From NCBI RefSeq assembly GCF_003987185.1, contig NZ_PIPS01000001.1, positions 682,001 through 746,000 of the forward strand: DNA of 64,000 bases, in the 5' to 3' direction. Source of the DNA: Idiomarina aquatica (lineage in GTDB: Bacteria > Pseudomonadota > Gammaproteobacteria > Enterobacterales > Alteromonadaceae). The position numbers and the translations under genes are program-made. The notes under the pieces were generated by a model. It was not told the origin of the DNA, made no database searches, and saw only the letters and a program-made list of their open reading frames with translations. Shown in pieces: positions 4,071 through 12,605 of the stretch (its first letter is position 1; each line of letters opens with the position of its first letter).

Positions 4071-4148
4071 AAGGTTAAAGATTTGCGCGCTGTGGCCGTT
4101 AAACAAAGTATCAAACGAGGTATCGGCATAATCCATTATGAGGTTGTC

Positions 4149-4625
4149 ATGAAACACTTAGCGGTCACCTTTGCACTTGCATCTGCTTTACTGCTGTCGG
4201 GCTGCAGCGCCTATTATAATCTGGCGTATGATCAGCAACACGTTGAGTGGGAAACCGAAACGCCGGATCAATTTCCGGTGTTAACGGCGGTTGGTTATGC
4301 GCCGATTGCCGAACAACCGGGGGATAGCCAGCAACATAAAGACTTGGCCGCGATGCGTGCGTCCAAACTGGCGGCTTATCGGGAACTGGCAGAACAGGTT
4401 TATGGGCAACGCATTGCCGGCGGCAGCTCGGTACAAAACTGGGCGCTGACCAACGACACGTTTCAGTCATCGGTTGATGGCGTGATTCGCGGTGCCGAAG
4501 TCGTTCGCACCTACACCGTGGGCGAATACTACGCCACCGAGCTGCGCTTAGATTTCGAAAAAGTCCATCGCATCTACCAAAGCACCAATCGCCAGCAGAA
4601 AATTAAGCGCGTTGTGTACTATTAA
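4149..4625 (+). CDS. flgP: FlgP-like flagellar outer-membrane lipoprotein (LPP20 family)
   Basis: A 158-residue lipoprotein: signal sequence MKHLAVTFALASALLLSGC with lipobox LSGC, then a domain resembling LPP20/FlgP with the typical AYRELAEQVYGQRIAG segment and a region involving VVRTYTVGEYYATELRLDF. FlgP forms an outer-membrane ring around the sheathed/polar flagellar motor in Vibrio relatives. The start at 4149 is chosen over an upstream in-frame start at 4083 because only this one begins with a signal peptide. flgT follows 73 bases downstream on the same strand, so the two probably form a unit. The usual partner flgO is not here but near 24 kb. Confidence 0.85.
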   Translation: MKHLAVTFALASALLLSGCSAYYNLAYDQQHVEWETETPDQFPVLTAVGYAPIAEQPGDSQQHKDLAAMRASKLAAYRELAEQVYGQRIAGGSSVQNWALTNDTFQSSVDGVIRGAEVVRTYTVGEYYATELRLDFEKVHRIYQSTNRQQKIKRVVYY

Positions 4626-4698
4626 CACAGTGTCATGAATCCGACTGGAATGGTACTTGCATAATCGCCTAAACACGTAAACGCCAAGCAGGTAATGC

Positions 4699-5862
4699 AT
4701 GAACTGGAAATTCATTCTTTTTTCACTGGTACTGTTGGTAGCCTTCAGCGCCGACGCCCGTGTGGTGGAAGCCCAGGGCAGCGCGCGCATTGTTAACGGT
4801 GACACCGATGCCGCCCGCGAACGCGCCATTGAAAACGCGCTGCAACAAGCGCTGTTGATAACCGGCAGTTCGATTTCCAGTGTCCAGTCCATTGTTGATG
4901 GCGTACTCAGTACCAATCAAACCCAGGTGTCCGCAACCGGTGACGTCGAAAACGTTAATATTCTTCGCGAAGAGGTTCGCAATGGTCGGGTCATTATTTT
5001 GTTACAAGCTGAAATTTGGAATCGCGAAAACACCTGTCGCGGCGATAAATATAAGATTGCTCTGACCGTAGTTCCGTTCGAACTCAGTAATCGTGAACAC
5101 GGTGCTTTTGGACAGATCTGGGAGTTGGGGAAAGTCAGCGCCGAGCGACTGACCCGGGAAATTTCCAGACGCAGCGATCGCATTTATGTCAGCCATACCT
5201 TGTCACGGAATACCGGCTTAACCAACGCTCTGCGCCAGCTTAACCTTGAGCATTTAGGCGCCATGGCACGCGAGGTTGGCAAGGCAAACGACAGTCAGTA
5301 TGTGGTGTTCGGACTGTTTGATGATTTATCCATGATTGAACAGCAGCGCGGCTGGGGTTTGTTTGACTCTGATTATCGCCGTAACTACGCACTGACCTTG
5401 TATTTGCTTAACGCCAGCAGCGGCGAACTGCTTACCCGCGCGCGGGTCAGTGACGTCGAAAGCTGGAATTATCAGCGTAATGAAACCGTTGATGTTGCCG
5501 CCAGCGAATTCTGGGATCGCCCGTTTGGCGCTGCGCTCATGACCGGCATCGAAGATCTCGCCGCTGGCGTTCGTGACCAGTTACGTTGCAAACCAACTCG
5601 TGGTCGGGTGGTATGGCAACAGGATAACCTGGTGCAATTTAACTTAGGCTCACACCACGGCGTTCGCGTCGGCGATCAGCTAAAAATTATTCACCCGTCT
5701 AACTTTGTCGACAATGAAGGGATTTATCGGCAGAAATGGCAGGTCAGTGAGTTTACCGTAGAAGTCACCCAGGTTCAGCACAACACCGCGGTGGCCGAGC
5801 TGTCCGGCCCGGGCATTCTTACCAATGTCCAGGTCAACGATTGGGTTATACCGGCGGAATAA
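4699..5862 (+). CDS. flgT: FlgT-like flagellar H-ring/assembly protein
   Basis: A 387-residue exported protein with an N-terminal signal peptide (about 20 residues, cleavage after FSADA). An N-terminal FlgT domain contains ARERAIENALQQALLITGSSISS and SATGDVENVNILREEVRNGRV. A middle domain follows, and a C-terminal SH3-like domain around residues 310-387 (LGSHHGVRVGDQLKIIH). In Vibrio, FlgT builds the H ring in the basal body and stabilises the motor. The length fits the family. It follows flgP and ends eight bases before tRNA-Arg on the opposite strand. Confidence 0.88.
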   Translation: MNWKFILFSLVLLVAFSADARVVEAQGSARIVNGDTDAARERAIENALQQALLITGSSISSVQSIVDGVLSTNQTQVSATGDVENVNILREEVRNGRVIILLQAEIWNRENTCRGDKYKIALTVVPFELSNREHGAFGQIWELGKVSAERLTREISRRSDRIYVSHTLSRNTGLTNALRQLNLEHLGAMAREVGKANDSQYVVFGLFDDLSMIEQQRGWGLFDSDYRRNYALTLYLLNASSGELLTRARVSDVESWNYQRNETVDVAASEFWDRPFGAALMTGIEDLAAGVRDQLRCKPTRGRVVWQQDNLVQFNLGSHHGVRVGDQLKIIHPSNFVDNEGIYRQKWQVSEFTVEVTQVQHNTAVAELSGPGILTNVQVNDWVIPAE

Positions 5863-5870
5863 CCGATAAC

Positions 5871-5947
5871 TGGCGTTCCCGGCAGGAGTCGAACCTGCGA
5901 CCTGCCGCTTAGGAGGCGGCTGCTCTATCCTACTGAGCTACGGGAAC
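5871..5947 (-). tRNA. tRNA-Arg (anticodon CCU)
   Basis: A 77-base tRNA on the minus strand with genome-encoded CCA. The acceptor arms GTTCCCG/CGGGAAC pair fully. The anticodon stem GCCGC/GCGGC encloses loop CTCCTAA, giving anticodon CCT, and the T-arm contains GGTTCGACTCC. It lies 59 bases after the stop of the GGDEF-EAL gene on the same strand. No integration scar or duplicated 3' end is visible beside it. Confidence 0.95.
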
Positions 5948-6006: not shown

Positions 6007-8013
6007 TTATCCTTGCAACGCGGCTCTTACGGATTGGCGGATGGTTTCATCATCCCAGGGCTTGGTCAAAAAGCGAAATACCTCACCCTCGTTCAGCGCC
6101 CGCGCCAGTGCCTCTTCGTCCTGATAAGCGGTCAACACAATACGTTGTGTGTTTGGATACATGGAACGAACATGGGTCAAAAACTCGACACCCTGCATCT
6201 GCGGCATACGATGGTCGGAAATAACCACGTCCACGTTATGCTGGGCCAATAAATCAAACGCCTCATTGGCCGAGTTTGCGGTCAAGATATGGTAGCCATC
6301 TCGCATCAGTAAGCGCCGCAACGATTTATTCACGTTTTCCTCGTCGTCAACAATCATGACGGTCGCTTCTGAACTCGGCTCGTCGGTACTGATGGATGCC
6401 TGATACTGACTCAAAAACTTGTCCAGTTGCGGTTTAGGCATTGGCTTAGCCATCAAAAAGCCCTGCATGGCATCACAACCGCTGCGCCGCAAGTAATCCC
6501 GCTGGGCGGTGGTTTCCACACCTTCCGCCATCACTTCCAGTTGCAGGTGATGAGCCATTGAAATGATGCCTTCGGTAATGGCCGCGTCACGGCTGTCGTG
6601 AGTGAGTTCGGTGATAAAACTGCGATCGATCTTAACCCAGCTAACCGGCAGGTCTTTGAGGTAACTCAGGCTGGAGTATCCGGTACCAAAGTCGTCCAGC
6701 GCCAGTTTGACACCAAGCTGATTCAATTTCGCCAATTTCTCGCTGATCAGCTGTGGATATTCAACCAACACCGACTCCGTCATTTCGAGCACCAGGTGGC
6801 GCGCATCAAGGCCACTTTCACGCAATGCCTGCGCCACTTCGTCGACGAATTCATGGCGCAGTAGCTGGATTGCCGAGATATTAACCGATACCGTTGCCTT
6901 GTTTGGCATCTGTTGCTTCAATTGCACGAAATCCTTGCAGGCACGCCGCAAGATCCAGCGCCCCAGACGCACGATTTCACCGGTATTTTCGGCAATCTGG
7001 ATAAACTCGGCCGGCGAAATCATGCCCATGGTGGGATGATTCCAGCGCACCAGAGATTCGACCCCGACCACGTCGTTATTATGCAGATCGAACTGCGGCT
7101 GATAGTGCAGTTCAAACTGCTTTTGCTCAATGCCGGACTGCAGTGCATTACGAATTTTTAGCGATTTTACCGTGCGGGTATCCAGTGATTGGTCAAACCA
7201 TTGGTACTGATTACGACCCCGGCGCTTGGCCTCGAACATGGCCATATCGGCCTGGCGGATTAACTGCAGCGGATCTTCATCATAAAGCTCGGTGGTGGCG
7301 ATACCGGCACTGGCGCTGATGTGTAGCTCGTTGCTGTCGAGTTCGAATGGCTCCGCTACCGACTGCAACATGCGCTCAGTCACCGCCGCGGCGTCACCGA
7401 TATGCGACAGATCCGGCAATATCAATACAAACTCATCCCCGCCGAGACGGGCCAGCGTATCGCTCGGCCGAATGTAGGACCGCAGCCGTTCAACCACTTG
7501 CTTTAGCAGGCGATCGCCGAGTTCGTGGCCGAGCGTGTCGTTGATCGGTTTAAAGCCATCCAAATCAAAAAATACAACGGCCAATACCCCTTTATTACGT
7601 TGTCCGAACGAAAACGCCTGTTTCAGACGATCTTCCAGCAAACCGCGATTCGGCAGGCCGGTCAGACTGTCATAATTGACCAGATCCGACAGTTGCTGTT
7701 GTAGCCCCTGCACGGCAGAAACATCTTCTAAATGCACCATCCGTACGGTATTACCATGCCAGACGGTGGGAACGTTAAAATGTCGAACCGGCAATTGCTT
7801 GCCATTGGGTAATTCCAGCTGTCCGGTGTTACCCAGTAACGCGTCTTCAGTTAACTGCAGTGGCAGAATTTTGTCGCACAGTTCGCTGTCGGTTTGCTGC
7901 AGCAGTTTCTCAGCCGCCGGGTTCGCATACAGAATGCGTCGTTCCAGCGTCACCAGTAAGGCAGCTGTCGGCATATCTTCGAGTAACTGCAGTAGCAAGG
8001 TATCAGAAGTCAT
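6007..8013 (-). CDS. PAS-GGDEF-EAL-REC c-di-GMP enzyme
   Basis: A 668-residue cytoplasmic protein with four domains. A PAS-like domain spans residues 1-105. The GGDEF domain has intact GGDEF at 191-195 and an inhibitory RxxD site (R182, D185) five residues upstream. The EAL domain begins ESLVRW near 319 and includes DDFGTGYSSLSYL. A C-terminal receiver domain (about 545-668) has acidic residues VDDE and phospho-acceptor Asp in VISDHRMP. Both cyclase and phosphodiesterase signatures look intact. The receiver at the C-terminus is unusual and is the natural target of the two histidine kinases encoded just upstream. It overlaps the preceding kinase gene by 11 bases and is last in the rsbQ-like operon. 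Confidence 0.9.
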   Translation of the reverse strand: MTSDTLLLQLLEDMPTAALLVTLERRILYANPAAEKLLQQTDSELCDKILPLQLTEDALLGNTGQLELPNGKQLPVRHFNVPTVWHGNTVRMVHLEDVSAVQGLQQQLSDLVNYDSLTGLPNRGLLEDRLKQAFSFGQRNKGVLAVVFFDLDGFKPINDTLGHELGDRLLKQVVERLRSYIRPSDTLARLGGDEFVLILPDLSHIGDAAAVTERMLQSVAEPFELDSNELHISASAGIATTELYDEDPLQLIRQADMAMFEAKRRGRNQYQWFDQSLDTRTVKSLKIRNALQSGIEQKQFELHYQPQFDLHNNDVVGVESLVRWNHPTMGMISPAEFIQIAENTGEIVRLGRWILRRACKDFVQLKQQMPNKATVSVNISAIQLLRHEFVDEVAQALRESGLDARHLVLEMTESVLVEYPQLISEKLAKLNQLGVKLALDDFGTGYSSLSYLKDLPVSWVKIDRSFITELTHDSRDAAITEGIISMAHHLQLEVMAEGVETTAQRDYLRRSGCDAMQGFLMAKPMPKPQLDKFLSQYQASISTDEPSSEATVMIVDDEENVNKSLRRLLMRDGYHILTANSANEAFDLLAQHNVDVVISDHRMPQMQGVEFLTHVRSMYPNTQRIVLTAYQDEEALARALNEGEVFRFLTKPWDDETIRQSVRAALQG

Positions 8014-9679
8014 TTTTTGTCCCGTCGTTGGCCTGCTGCAGCAGGACCTTTATCACACAGCCCTGTTCTGCAGCGGTCTCTATCATCAGTTTTCCGTGAT
8101 GTATGTCAACTATTTTTTCTGCCAGAGCCAGCCCCATGCCACTGCCTGGGATGCCCTCGGCATCGGCTTCATCACCGCGGTTAAAGGGTCTTAACATCCT
8201 TTTTAATTGCTGGTTTTTCATGCCCCTGCCGTTATCGGCAAAGCACCAGGCAACTTTACCGTTGCCGACAGACTGGGTGTAGACAGTGATTTTTAGTCGC
8301 CGCGTCGGCGATCTAAATTTGATCGCGTTACTGATGAGTTGTTTGGCCAGCTCATACAACAACCCGGCATCTCCCGTCGCGCTCTCGGCAACCTGTATGT
8401 CCAGATTTGCCCGCAAATGCTGCAGCCGCTCATGGTATTCCAGCGCCACCTGATGCGTGATTTCATTTAAGTCACAGCGTCTTTGTTGCGGTTGGTGATT
8501 GTCTAACAACGCATAAGCCTGGGTTTCCTGCAGCAAGCGCTGCCAGTGGCGAATACTGCTTTGCGTTTGTTGCAGTAGAGTGGTCGTCTGCGGATCCAGC
8601 TCGACATTGCTGTCGAATTGTTGCAGTTGTGTCAGCACCACCTGAACCGGTTCCTGTAAATGCTGATCAATAATGTATGCGAGACTGTCGCGGGACCTTA
8701 ATGCACGGTCACGTTCCGCTTCGATCTGTGCATACTCTGTACGATCGTTCACGATCATTAACCAATGACCGTTGTAGCGTTTGATCAACAGCTCTACCGG
8801 TAATTTCACGCCGTCGCTTAACCAACTGCCGTGCCAGCGCATCGGCTTACGATCGGAGGGTTGTTGCTGCACTAGTTGCTGGCGTAAGACGTCCCAGTCG
8901 GCATCACTCAACCAGCAGTCGATACTGCGGCCGGGCAGACGACTATTCTGCGCCGCAATCCAGCGCTCCGCCAGCGCATTGCTGTTAACGATTTTTCCAT
9001 CGCTCTGCACCACCAACGCCGCCAATGGCAAACTCATTAGACGATCATTCATCGCCACATCAGTGGCCCGACGCGAGTGCAGCAGCGTGACATAAGCCAA
9101 CAACAGTTGTCGCATGATTTCAATCAGGCTAAGGCCGGCAAACGCCATCACCAGAAACAGTCCGGGCAACGAGTCGTATAAGCCGTCACTCCCCTGCAAC
9201 GGTTGGTTCACCACGTGTAGCCAGATAAACGCCAGTAATAACGCCAGCGTCAGGTAAGCCCATAACCAGATGTTATCCTGCTGATCCCTGTAGCCGCTGT
9301 TCAGGTAAGGCAGCAACCAAAACCCCAGTGCCAGTTGTAGCGCAATAACGGCGCGGTAAATCAGCAAATCTGAGCTTAATCCCTGGTACAAAAACGCAGC
9401 GCATGCAACCGCACTGATTAGCGCCAGACCGCGCCAGTACCAGCGTCGCATCGCCGTTAATCGTATCCGCAACCGCGAACTGAGCAGCAGCGCCCATCCC
9501 AATACCGCCAGCAGCAACGTTAGCAAACCGTCAGTCAGGGATAAGCGGCTGGATACACTGAACAAGTTCAGAGTCAGCCCAAAACTTAACAAGCCGCCCC
9601 AGATCGAGCAGAGACAGGTTAGTGCAAACCAGTAACCGCGTGCGACGATGTTTATGCCGTTATTCGAGTTGTTTGCCAT
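8003..9679 (-). CDS. Membrane-bound PAS sensor histidine kinase
   Basis: A 558-residue kinase. The N-terminal ~225 residues are hydrophobic with about six or seven membrane helices. Then come a PAS-like region (about 240-330), a divergent dimerisation/phosphoacceptor helix with HLQEP in place of HELRTP, and a C-terminal ATPase domain with FADNGRGM and GSGMGLALAEKIV boxes. The start at 9679 is preferred because CAGGAG lies just upstream; a longer in-frame start at 9739 would overlap the previous gene much further. As placed, it overlaps the upstream kinase gene by 20 bases. No receiver domain is attached; the following gene carries one. Confidence 0.85.
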   Translation of the reverse strand: MANNSNNGINIVARGYWFALTCLCSIWGGLLSFGLTLNLFSVSSRLSLTDGLLTLLLAVLGWALLLSSRLRIRLTAMRRWYWRGLALISAVACAAFLYQGLSSDLLIYRAVIALQLALGFWLLPYLNSGYRDQQDNIWLWAYLTLALLLAFIWLHVVNQPLQGSDGLYDSLPGLFLVMAFAGLSLIEIMRQLLLAYVTLLHSRRATDVAMNDRLMSLPLAALVVQSDGKIVNSNALAERWIAAQNSRLPGRSIDCWLSDADWDVLRQQLVQQQPSDRKPMRWHGSWLSDGVKLPVELLIKRYNGHWLMIVNDRTEYAQIEAERDRALRSRDSLAYIIDQHLQEPVQVVLTQLQQFDSNVELDPQTTTLLQQTQSSIRHWQRLLQETQAYALLDNHQPQQRRCDLNEITHQVALEYHERLQHLRANLDIQVAESATGDAGLLYELAKQLISNAIKFRSPTRRLKITVYTQSVGNGKVAWCFADNGRGMKNQQLKRMLRPFNRGDEADAEGIPGSGMGLALAEKIVDIHHGKLMIETAAEQGCVIKVLLQQANDGTKNDF

Positions 9680-10904
9680 GATTACACTCCTGTGCCAACG
9701 GGAACCACACGCCAATACATGTTCCCTTACCGACGTCACTGTCGATGGTTAATTTACCCAAGTGTCTGCGTACGATGTTATAAACCAGTGCCAGACCGAG
9801 ACCCGTGCCCTCGCCTTCGGGCTTGGTGGTATAAAATGGTTCCAGCGCGCGCTTGCGGGTTTCTTCACTCATGCCCTCGCCATTATCGGCTACTTCGATG
9901 TAAACAAATTGCTCGACGACACCGGTACGGATCGTGATCTGCCCAAATCGATTGATTGCTTGCAGCGCATTCACCAGCAGATTCATCATCACCTGATTAA
10001 ACTGAGCCGGATCGCAGGCAATATTGAGCGGACTGCCATTAAAGTCCCGTTGGATACGGGCTTTGTTTTTAATCTCATTATGCAGCACCCGCAAGGTGGT
10101 ATTGATCTGTTCGTGCACATTGCATTGCTCGACGTTACCGGGCGCCCGCGCGAACTGCGTCAGCGCTGAGGTGATTGAGGTGATGTGCGCGACGCCCTGT
10201 TGACTTTCCTGCAGCAAATCCAGTAAATCAGCCGCAATAAACTCGAAATTTTCCTGTTGCAGTCGTTGCTTTAACAGACCCTCAGCGTTATCCGTTAGTA
10301 CCTTGAGCAGTTTTTCCACATAATGACTGAGGCTGTTCAAGTTGGACTGTATGTAACCGACCGGGTTGTTGATTTCGTGGGCAATACCCGCTGACAGTTG
10401 CCCAAGCGCCGCCAGCTTCTCCGTTTGTAGCAGTTCATAATTGGTGTTTTCGAGCTTTTCCAGTAGCGCTTTTTGCTTGTTACGTTCATTCCGTAAGTGC
10501 TGCTCCCGCCGGCTCAGTTCCCGGTTCAGGCTTTCGGTGTATTTGCGTTCCTGGATCAATTGCTGTTGCAGCGCCAGATGTTGATCGGCCTGCATCAGTA
10601 TCAGTAATGCGGTGTCGTTATCCTGCGAGTGTGCTGACACAATAAACGGCCGACAGCCTTGAGCTGTGTTCAAATATAAGGTTTGTTGTTCGCAGTTCTG
10701 GCGCTGACGTAGCTTGATGTCGATGGCGGATAAGTAGTAAAGGCGCGAGGCCGCGGTTAGAACATTGTCCAGACTGGTATTGATGAGTTGCTCTGGTGTA
10801 CGTTTCAGCAACGCCGCAAACTCGGGACTCAGCTCATGCATGATGCGCCCGTCCAGCGCTATCCGCACGGCCAAACCAGGCCAGTCGGTCAAGTAATCGG
10901 TCAT
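9660..10904 (-). CDS. Soluble PAS histidine kinase, probable partner of the RsbQ-like hydrolase
   Basis: A 414-residue protein without membrane segments. It has an N-terminal PAS domain (1-105), a coiled coil (105-165), a HisKA box with GQLSAGIAHEINNP (His176) and an ATPase domain with ADNGEGM and GTGLGLALVYNIV. The PAS segment LDNVLTAASRLYYLSAI resembles the LLT-x-x-SR-x-FY pattern of the RsbP PAS domain that works with RsbQ in Bacillus subtilis. Its ATG overlaps the hydrolase stop by four bases (ATGA), so the two are coupled. The RsbP-type PAS assignment is recalled from family knowledge and needs a profile search. Confidence 0.85.
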   Translation of the reverse strand: MTDYLTDWPGLAVRIALDGRIMHELSPEFAALLKRTPEQLINTSLDNVLTAASRLYYLSAIDIKLRQRQNCEQQTLYLNTAQGCRPFIVSAHSQDNDTALLILMQADQHLALQQQLIQERKYTESLNRELSRREQHLRNERNKQKALLEKLENTNYELLQTEKLAALGQLSAGIAHEINNPVGYIQSNLNSLSHYVEKLLKVLTDNAEGLLKQRLQQENFEFIAADLLDLLQESQQGVAHITSITSALTQFARAPGNVEQCNVHEQINTTLRVLHNEIKNKARIQRDFNGSPLNIACDPAQFNQVMMNLLVNALQAINRFGQITIRTGVVEQFVYIEVADNGEGMSEETRKRALEPFYTTKPEGEGTGLGLALVYNIVRRHLGKLTIDSDVGKGTCIGVWFPLAQECNHGKQLE

Positions 10905-11722
10905 AAGGGCACCGTAGCCTGGTTGAGCACTCGTTCGATTTGCGCAATCACCTGGGCCGGTGCGCTGACATGCGGGTAATGTCCCCTGGCATCTATCACC
11001 GTCAGCTCGGCCTTAGGCAACTGAGCCACGGTGTACTCCGCCACCCGTTGCGGTACCACGATGTCTTTATTGGCCTGAACCACGGTTACCGGGCAATCAA
11101 CCTGCGCCAGTTCGGCGCGCACATCGGAATAAAAGGTCGCCCGCGCAAACGCTCGTACTATGCGCTGTTCACCGGCGCTAAACTGACGCGTCAGCTGTTC
11201 GGTCAGATCACGGCGTTCCGGGTTTTCCATCACTTGCGGTGCTAAACCCTGCGCCCAGGCAAAAAAGTTTTGTTCCATCATGACCATCAGTTGATCAACG
11301 TCTTCGCGGTCGAAGCCGCTTTGATAATGCGGTTTATCGTGAAGATAACGTGGTGACGGGTTAAGCATGACGATGTGCTTAAGCCGTTGCCGAATGGCCG
11401 GATAGGCAAGGGTTGCGATACTGCCGCTGACCGAGTGGGCAACCAGGATCAAGTGCTCGGACTCGAGACTGTTAACGACGTCGATTAAATCCTGCGCATA
11501 GCCGCTGAGCGACTGATAACGCTGTTCATCGTATTGGCTCAGGTCAGAATCACCGCTGCCGACGTAATCAAAGGTCACCACCGTAGCGCGGTCATGAAAT
11601 GCAGGCGCAACCTGATGCCAGATGCTCTGATCGCAGCCAAAGCCGTGCGCAAACAGCAGCGTCGGCGACCCGGTTCCGATGACTTTTACGTTATTCCTTA
11701 ACCGTACCGCTTTATCTTCCAT
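10901..11722 (-). CDS. RsbQ/KAI2-like alpha/beta hydrolase
   Basis: A 273-residue alpha/beta hydrolase closely resembling RsbQ of Bacillus and the plant KAI2/D14 receptors: NNVKVIGTGSPTLLFAHGF at the N-terminus, GCDQSIWHQVAPAF, FDYVGSGDSDLSQYD, nucleophile Ser97 in HSVSG, Asp220 in ANKDIVVP and His248 in ARGHYPHVS. RsbQ-type proteins act as signalling hydrolases that hand a small-molecule signal to a PAS domain. This gene is first in a four-gene operon and overlaps a PAS kinase by four bases, which supports a sensory rather than a metabolic role. The ligand is unknown. Confidence 0.9.
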   Translation of the reverse strand: MEDKAVRLRNNVKVIGTGSPTLLFAHGFGCDQSIWHQVAPAFHDRATVVTFDYVGSGDSDLSQYDEQRYQSLSGYAQDLIDVVNSLESEHLILVAHSVSGSIATLAYPAIRQRLKHIVMLNPSPRYLHDKPHYQSGFDREDVDQLMVMMEQNFFAWAQGLAPQVMENPERRDLTEQLTRQFSAGEQRIVRAFARATFYSDVRAELAQVDCPVTVVQANKDIVVPQRVAEYTVAQLPKAELTVIDARGHYPHVSAPAQVIAQIERVLNQATVPL

Positions 11723-11825: not shown

Positions 11826-12605
11826 TTATTTAAAAGGAATGCGTAAAAGCCCCCACAAACGCGTGGTCAAGTTACCGTCCCGATAGTGTTCGAGGCCGAT
11901 GTCGATGTGGTCAGAACCGGCGCTGGGCTGGTCGGTATAGCTGTTAAACAGGTGATCCCACCAGCTCACGCTAAAACCATAATTGGAGTTGGTTTCCTGC
12001 TTTACGCTGCTGTGGTGGATGCGATGCAATTCCTGCGTAATTAAGACTTTTCTTACCCGCGCTTCCCATTTCGGTGGCAACGCCACATTGCCGTGATTAA
12101 ACAGGGAACAGGCATTCAGCACCACTTCGAACACGATAATGGCCAATATCGGCGCGCCGAGGGCAACGGCAACCGCCGCTTTGATGCCGAGGCTGAGGAG
12201 GATCTCAAGCGGATGAAAACGCAGGCCGGTGGTGACGTCAAAGTCAGGATCGGCGTGATGCACCCGGTGCAAACGCCATAGAATGGGAATGCGGTGAAAA
12301 GCGCGGTGTTGCCAGTAAATGGCGATATCGAAAAGCAAGAAGCTGAGTACTACTTCCAGCCAGAGCGGCCAGCTAACGACGTTAAACAAGCCCACGCCCT
12401 GCTGTTGTGCCCATACCGCCGCGCCGACGACCCCTGCGGGTACCGCCAGACGCGCGATCAGTGTATCAATGGCAACAATACCGAGGTTCGCCGGCCAGCG
12501 CTGCCAACGGGTATAGCGCGACTGTCGTTTCGGCCGCCACAACTCCCAGCCGATCATCAACGCCAGCACCGTCACAAAAATCGTCAGTCGAACTATCGTT
12601 TCCAT
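11826..12605 (-). CDS. Sterol desaturase / fatty acid hydroxylase family protein
   Basis: A 259-residue membrane protein with several hydrophobic helices and the eight-histidine di-iron pattern of the family: HRAFH near residue 102, HRVHH near 115 and HRIHH near 200, plus HGN near 172. Such enzymes hydroxylate or desaturate lipids at the membrane; the substrate here cannot be told. It sits alone on the minus strand between the rsbQ-like operon and a repeat-filled gap. No neighbour suggests a pathway. Confidence 0.85.
   Translation of the reverse strand: METIVRLTIFVTVLALMIGWELWRPKRQSRYTRWQRWPANLGIVAIDTLIARLAVPAGVVGAAVWAQQQGVGLFNVVSWPLWLEVVLSFLLFDIAIYWQHRAFHRIPILWRLHRVHHADPDFDVTTGLRFHPLEILLSLGIKAAVAVALGAPILAIIVFEVVLNACSLFNHGNVALPPKWEARVRKVLITQELHRIHHSSVKQETNSNYGFSVSWWDHLFNSYTDQPSAGSDHIDIGLEHYRDGNLTTRLWGLLRIPFK

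Follow-up and report, generated by a model that had tools for sequence, protein, structure and literature searches.

An operon joining an RsbQ-type hydrolase, a PAS-histidine kinase and a receiver-bearing GGDEF-EAL enzyme in Idiomarina aquatica

Introduction

Does an RsbQ-type hydrolase govern the turnover of cyclic di-GMP (c-di-GMP) by way of a histidine kinase and a receiver domain in Idiomarina aquatica? The question is raised by an operon of four genes, encoding an RsbQ-type hydrolase, a PAS-histidine kinase (kinase 1), a second kinase-like protein (gene 3) and a PAS-GGDEF-EAL enzyme that ends in a receiver (REC), which lies at positions 6007 to 11722 of a 64,000-nucleotide stretch of contig NZ_PIPS01000001.1 (hereafter the window). 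The arrangement that we call the cassette unites a divergent pair of hydrolase and PAS with a kinase and with a GGDEF-EAL enzyme whose C terminus carries a receiver. It is present in 5 of the 19 genomes of the genus, and from its sequence it looks like a narrowly distributed and apparently new wiring of a known sensor pair.

The sensor pair was defined as the RsbQ-PAS module by Nadezhdin, Brody and Price in 2011 from 45 examples, with a PPM phosphatase, a histidine kinase or a diguanylate cyclase, sometimes with an EAL domain, as output (PMC3183031). In B. subtilis, genetics showed that the RsbQ triad and the contact between RsbQ and the PAS domain are needed for signalling; as of 2011, that paper states, B. 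subtilis was the only organism in which the target of the module was known (PMC3183031). A 2025 eLife paper cites the RsbQ-PAS work and presents a predicted RsbP-RsbQ complex (PMC12143880). The first-pass annotation of the window had called RsbQ-type control of c-di-GMP little described; since the coupling of RsbQ-PAS to kinases and cyclases by fusion was published in 2011 (PMC3183031), this is wrong in general. The word Idiomarina is absent from the main text of that paper, and the titles and abstract openings of literature pairing RsbQ with c-di-GMP, GGDEF, histidine kinase or Idiomarina did not describe the operon. The GGDEF-EAL-REC architecture was not found by name in the literature, which does not prove its absence in print.

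Results

Layout of the operon

The four open reading frames lie on the minus strand and overlap by 4, 20 (80 if gene 3 starts at GTG) and 11 bases, just as the first-pass annotation had them. They and their domains are as follows, with the basis of each assignment in brackets.

10901..11722, minus strand: RsbQ-type alpha/beta hydrolase, 273 residues, triad S97/D220/H248 (open reading frame, family match, triad)
9660..10904, minus strand: kinase 1, 414 residues, with an RsbP-type PAS domain, a helical linker, a HisKA-type H-box at H176 (HEINNP) and a HATPase domain (domains, profiles)
10551..10904, minus strand: RsbP-type PAS domain of kinase 1, about residues 1–118 (hhalign, reverse profile search)
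8003..9679, minus strand: gene 3, 558 residues from the ATG at 9679, or 578 residues from the GTG at 9739 (open reading frame, domains)
6007..8013, minus strand: PAS-GGDEF-EAL-REC enzyme, 668 residues (domains, motifs)
7207..7677, minus strand: GGDEF domain of the enzyme, motif RLGGDEF (domain match, motif)
6442..7152, minus strand: EAL (phosphodiesterase) domain of the enzyme, catalytic motifs present (domain match, motifs)
6028..6360, minus strand: C-terminal receiver of the enzyme, phospho-acceptor Asp in VVISDHRMP (domain match, motif)

The c-di-GMP enzyme with a C-terminal receiver that had been proposed is thus present with both its domains and its motifs. Neither the promoter scan (4 hits, mean of shuffles 4.8) nor the terminator scan (7 against 7.1) was richer than shuffled sequence.

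A divergent hydrolase-PAS pair

Firstly, the hydrolase is of the RsbQ type, as had been claimed and as judged from family match and triad. Among the best 60 of its 140 PDB matches, B. subtilis RsbQ (1wom) comes first at E 1.1e-70, followed by the bacterial protein Olei00960 (4.8e-60) and then by KAI2/D14-type entries from 1.5e-48 to 6.7e-38, the best KAI2 entry standing at 1.5e-48 and the best D14 entry at 5.7e-44; past this group the next match drops to 1.7e-12. The hydrolase was compared across 58 loci, namely the window and hydrolase matches at E ≤ 1e-40 or 1e-45, each with limited flanks (loci L001 and L035 belong to the same genome and were counted as L035 only). The Ser-Asp-His triad S97/D220/H248 is identical in all 58. 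A search of the genome contigs with the hydrolase returned three loci, one of them close.

Within this family the five cassette hydrolases form a single clade (Shimodaira-Hasegawa-like approximate likelihood ratio test, SH-aLRT, 98; quick method, midpoint root), separate from the main sets linked to kinases and to GGDEF proteins; its nearest neighbours, L040 (with a PAS-GGDEF partner) and L063 (with a PAS-kinase), are both long branches. At ten positions all five deviate from a residue that is shared by 75% or more of 51 others, a set that includes RsbQ and leaves out L062, L072 and L082, for which a PAS neighbour was not found. The changes include A95 at the nucleophile elbow, S135 (Gly in 51/51 others) and Y249, the neighbour of the catalytic His; at two of the ten positions (150 and 190) RsbQ has the residue of the cassette hydrolases.

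Secondly, the PAS domain of kinase 1, which is its most N-terminal domain and is encoded directly downstream of the RsbQ homologue, belongs to the RsbQ-partner (RsbP-type) class, yet is divergent. Pfam recognises it weakly (PAS_9, E 0.015), and it carries an RsbP-like LLT/SRLYY stretch. By hhalign it matched a profile built from 21 PAS domains encoded next to hydrolases at other loci, with a probability of 98.4 over 115 columns. As a control, the PAS domain of the enzyme reached 94.5 against the same profile over only 69 columns and left a gap at the F-helix stretch, so general PAS kinship contributes to the profile match; compared directly, the two domains show no match (probability 0.5). When the 21-domain profile was searched against the window's own genome, kinase 1 came first (E 6.8e-6), a result softened by the second and third matches being the operon's other PAS-like stretches, in gene 3 (0.005) and the enzyme (0.009). 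The reverse search, with a five-row profile of kinase 1 PAS domains against 395 genomes of the family (E ≤ 1e-5), gave 35 matches, the 5 cassettes and 30 others, and in 30/30 of the non-cassette matches a hydrolase lies directly upstream (7 at known hydrolases, and 23/23 of the remaining). It is because this search recovers only hydrolase-adjacent PAS domains that we assign the kinase 1 PAS to the class; the RsbP-type PAS and its clustering, put forward in the first-pass annotation, thus held in profile searches run in both directions.

The divergence is seen in the class residues. In RsbP numbering the window PAS has G10, V13, L48, R53, Y55, Y56, A59, Q72 and P86, where RsbP and its class have C10, L13, L48, Q53 or a basic residue, F55, C56, Y59, E72 and P86; L48, a basic residue at 53, an aromatic one at 55 and P86 are therefore retained, and C10, Y/H59 and E72 are not. 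The DIT motif is absent at the C-terminal end of the domain, which by eye reads LILMQADQH.

The kinase core of kinase 1 has the H-box His, the N box and the G boxes, with HEINNP at 176, NLLVNA at 308, DNGEG at 340 and GEGTGL at 364. Pfam assigns HATPase_c at E 4.8e-23, and HisKA scores below its curated cut-off (19.6 against 26.9 bits). An HExxN motif, such as the H-box has, is generally linked with dephosphorylation of receivers.

The receiver accompanies the hydrolase and kinase 1

Thirdly, we compared the site of the operon across the genus. Its flanks in the window are as follows.

4699..5862, plus strand: flgT (flagellar assembly protein T), convergent with the operon
5871..5947, minus strand: tRNA-Arg(CCT) (tRNA scan)
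11826..12605, minus strand: FA_hydroxylase-family protein, on the opposite side

flgT is present in 19/19 genomes. Beside it we found the cassette in five; a receiver-less PAS-GGDEF-EAL enzyme of 535–537 residues in four (G072, G100, G107 and G108), two of which also have a 334-residue relative of gene 3; a clean empty site, where flgT and the FA_hydroxylase gene adjoin, in seven; a partly lost flank in one (G113) and other genes in two. The receiver-less enzyme is the sole match to the window enzyme at E ≤ 1e-100 in its four genomes (40–41% identity), and searches of the same genomes found neither a hydrolase (E ≤ 1e-40) nor a PAS of the kinase 1 type (E ≤ 1e-5). The order hydrolase, kinase 1, enzyme is kept in five genomes, the other four hydrolases being 55–69% identical to that of the window. 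The C-terminal receiver is found with the hydrolase and kinase 1 in 5/5 genomes and, where both are missing, in 0/4, the enzyme ending after its EAL domain. This joint presence and absence supports signalling from the hydrolase through kinase 1 to the receiver, and with it the proposed linkage of the sensor to a receiver-bearing c-di-GMP enzyme, the three elements co-occurring at one site.

A recent mobile insertion beside the tRNA was considered and rejected: tRNA-Arg(CCT) was found in 15/15 scanned sources, with or without a cassette (L095, L097, L100 and L104 lay outside the scan), and the five cassette sites and the seven clean empty sites alike lie between flgT and the FA_hydroxylase gene. 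In the window, positions 4083–5862 hold flgT and an adjoining gene for an LPP20-type lipoprotein, both convergent with the operon.

Outputs of hydrolase loci

Among the 58 loci, the neighbour of the hydrolase is a PAS-GGDEF protein in 26, a PAS-kinase in 15 (including the 5 cassette loci), a PAS-hybrid kinase in 8, a PAS-GGDEF-EAL protein in 3 and a PAS domain with unclear output in 2; no PAS neighbour was found in 3, and 1 is a fusion. L063 was assigned to the PAS-kinases by hand, its open reading frame overlapping the hydrolase beyond the cut-off of the script. In this survey a receiver-bearing GGDEF-EAL gene behind a hydrolase and a PAS-kinase occurs only in the five cassette loci. The hydrolase was found in 6/19 genomes of the genus, 19/98 of the family, 13/295 of the order, 3/369 of the class and 20/398 of the phylum, figures obtained with differing cut-offs on overlapping samples.

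A lone receiver gene stands behind the hydrolase and PAS-kinase at L063 (6531–6959) and at L070, as further candidate targets. At L060 (7178–8926, genome G002) the hydrolase, an RsbP-type PAS and a GGDEF domain are fused in a single open frame of 582 residues. I. seosinensis (G106) has at L038 (4218–8472) a second, ordinary hydrolase with a PAS-GGDEF partner (GGEEF), followed by a REC-REC-GGDEF-EAL gene. The RsbQ-type hydrolases at L072 (1879–2847) and L082 (8049–8909) have no PAS partner detected alongside.

Direction of the output

The window enzyme has the motifs RLGGDEF, EAL and DDFGTG and the receiver Asp. Seven EAL motifs are kept in 9/9 site enzymes. GGDEF is intact in the window and G028; the motif reads DGDEF in G098 and G104, and SGDEF in the four receiver-less enzymes as well as in I. 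seosinensis. Looser patterns were needed for LEMTET (LExTES) in I. seosinensis and for MDGDEF and SDQRMR in G098 and G104. Because EAL is conserved while GGDEF drifts, net breakdown of c-di-GMP is the likelier predicted output. An extra, N-terminal receiver occurs on the enzyme only in G098 and G104, and not in the window, G028 or I. seosinensis. At the I. seosinensis locus L001 (10102–12101) the c-di-GMP gene is split, with the PAS in a short frame ending in a stop and GGDEF-EAL-REC in an overlapping frame.

Discussion

Proposed pathway

We think it rather probable that the hydrolase-PAS sensor switches kinase 1, and that kinase 1 acts on the receiver of the enzyme to set c-di-GMP turnover. 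The cytoplasmic hydrolase would make contact with the PAS at the N terminus of kinase 1, and the two would form a bipartite sensor, the Q-PAS module; a small molecule bound or turned over by the hydrolase would alter its contact with the PAS dimer, and the helical linker would relay the change to the kinase core. Kinase 1 would then phosphorylate the C-terminal receiver or, via HExxN, dephosphorylate it, and the state of the receiver would set the turnover, most likely towards net breakdown by the EAL domain. Gene 3 would be a side input that is decaying in the lineage of the window.

Five points weigh against this pathway. The PAS positions 59 and 72 are Ala and Gln in 5/5 cassettes and Tyr/His/Phe and Glu in 22/22 others; in RsbP either change to Ala (Y59A, E72A) is null, and Y59A also lowers the binding of RsbQ, although the level of this mutant protein was itself just 50–60% (PMC3183031), so that the contact of the hydrolase with the PAS may be altered or lost in the cassettes. 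The structure model of kinase 1, built on a two-sequence alignment, could not be used (mean predicted local distance difference test score, pLDDT, 52, and below 50 at residues 1–109). In a FastTree marker tree the four receiver-less genomes group together as the sister clade of the window, G028 and G106, and G098 and G104 fall among genomes with empty sites; the pattern of enzyme and receiver may therefore rest on a single event, and the tree does not distinguish gain from loss at the site. The enzyme of the window keeps an intact GGDEF motif and could therefore also synthesise c-di-GMP. Finally, the genome holds 48 receiver matches, and kinase 1 could therefore serve other regulators.

Alternative readings

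One alternative, which we regard as possible if doubtful, is that the hydrolase is a metabolic enzyme delivering its product to the PAS, which would itself be the true sensor (model 1 of Nadezhdin et al.); the pathway would stay as proposed and only its front end would differ. The triad kept in every locus and the changes shared by the cassette hydrolases in the active-site region (A95, Y249) agree with it; the ligand of the RsbP PAS was, however, not known in 2011 (PMC3183031), and sequence does not distinguish product delivery from sensing by hydrolase occupancy (model 2).

An unlikely extension is that the cassette represents a re-specialised Q-PAS lineage, in which hydrolase and PAS changed together at contact and active-site positions (PAS A59 and Q72; hydrolase A95, S135, G184 and Y249), respond to another small molecule and drive breakdown through phosphotransfer, the L038 pair of I. 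seosinensis driving synthesis. If this were true, one receptor family would push c-di-GMP in opposite directions within one I. seosinensis cell.

Just as unlikely, in our view, is that gene 3 still signals, either as a pseudokinase, through the neighbouring H360 or by cross-phosphorylating kinase 1; two inputs would then be integrated. Gene 3 had been described as a membrane PAS kinase. Six hydrophobic segments (simple hydropathy scan), a HATPase domain and a stretch weakly resembling PAS (E 0.005) agree with this description, but there is no HisKA match at E ≤ 1, no Pfam PAS family above cut-off, and the acceptor position is Gln (Q359 numbered from the GTG; codon CAG, 8663–8665; box DQHLQEP). 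From its sequence, gene 3 of the window probably cannot autophosphorylate at the usual residue. The other three cassette genomes with gene 3 all have His at this position; the gene was found in 4/19 genomes of the genus at E ≤ 1e-30 and gave no match in I. seosinensis. G098 and G104 have a normal H-box (SHDLQEPL; HisKA E 7.8e-14 and 1e-12) and, with the second, N-terminal receiver on their enzyme, look like a form with two kinases and two receivers. The G028 box is DHHLQPP, and gene 3 of this genome does not match HisKA at E ≤ 0.01. Neither the window nor G028 nor I. seosinensis has the N-terminal receiver, and the last of these has no gene 3. Gene 3 might act as a pseudokinase, because its ATPase domain remains recognisable and its frame open. 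Most simply read, these few cases suggest that gene 3 once fed the N-terminal receiver and is decaying where that receiver has gone. Two working kinases, as the default reading, were rejected given the Gln and the missing HisKA match, and the idea that two kinases integrate two signals is not supported, since the second kinase has no acceptor His in the window and does not occur in I. seosinensis. Relatives of gene 3 of 334 residues with a HATPase domain, at L094 (6556–7560) and L095 (5940–6944), stand beside a receiver-less GGDEF-EAL enzyme; the gene-3-like protein of G107 does not match HisKA at E ≤ 0.01, and the same result stands for L094.

That kinase 1 acts on another response regulator, the enzyme being a mere neighbour, is quite improbable: the many receivers of the genome would allow it, and the core of kinase 1 gives scores with numerous NCBIfam kinase models (T2SS_HK, AtoS and EspC first), none of those listed passing its cut-off, so that its family indicates no partner, but the genes overlap, their order is kept in five genomes, and where hydrolase and kinase 1 are missing from the site the enzyme has no receiver.

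Relation to known systems

The proposed pathway from hydrolase to receiver resembles the Q-PAS modules with kinase output, in which an RsbQ homologue likewise lies directly upstream of a PAS-histidine kinase in Gram-negatives (PMC3183031). It differs from them in adding a receiver-tagged GGDEF-EAL enzyme as likely target, in the separate clade of its hydrolase and in a PAS without Y59 and E72. With B. subtilis RsbQ-RsbP it has the hydrolase family, the triad and the PAS partner in common; there, however, the output is a PPM phosphatase activating sigma B, whereas phosphotransfer is predicted here. The direct Q-PAS-GGDEF(-EAL) proteins of our survey (26 PAS-GGDEF, 3 PAS-GGDEF-EAL and 1 fusion) share the sensor type and the c-di-GMP output, but their PAS is fused to the cyclase, and in the window a kinase and a receiver stand between sensor and c-di-GMP enzyme. 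The plant receptors KAI2 and D14, next by sequence after the bacterial relatives of the window hydrolase, resemble it in sequence alone; they act via F-box and repressor proteins.

The operon thus places a kinase-type module and its likely receiver-bearing target in one overlapping gene set, so that input, phosphotransfer and output could be tested with three proteins, and it could aid the discovery of ligands for the bacterial relatives of the plant KAI2/D14 receptors.

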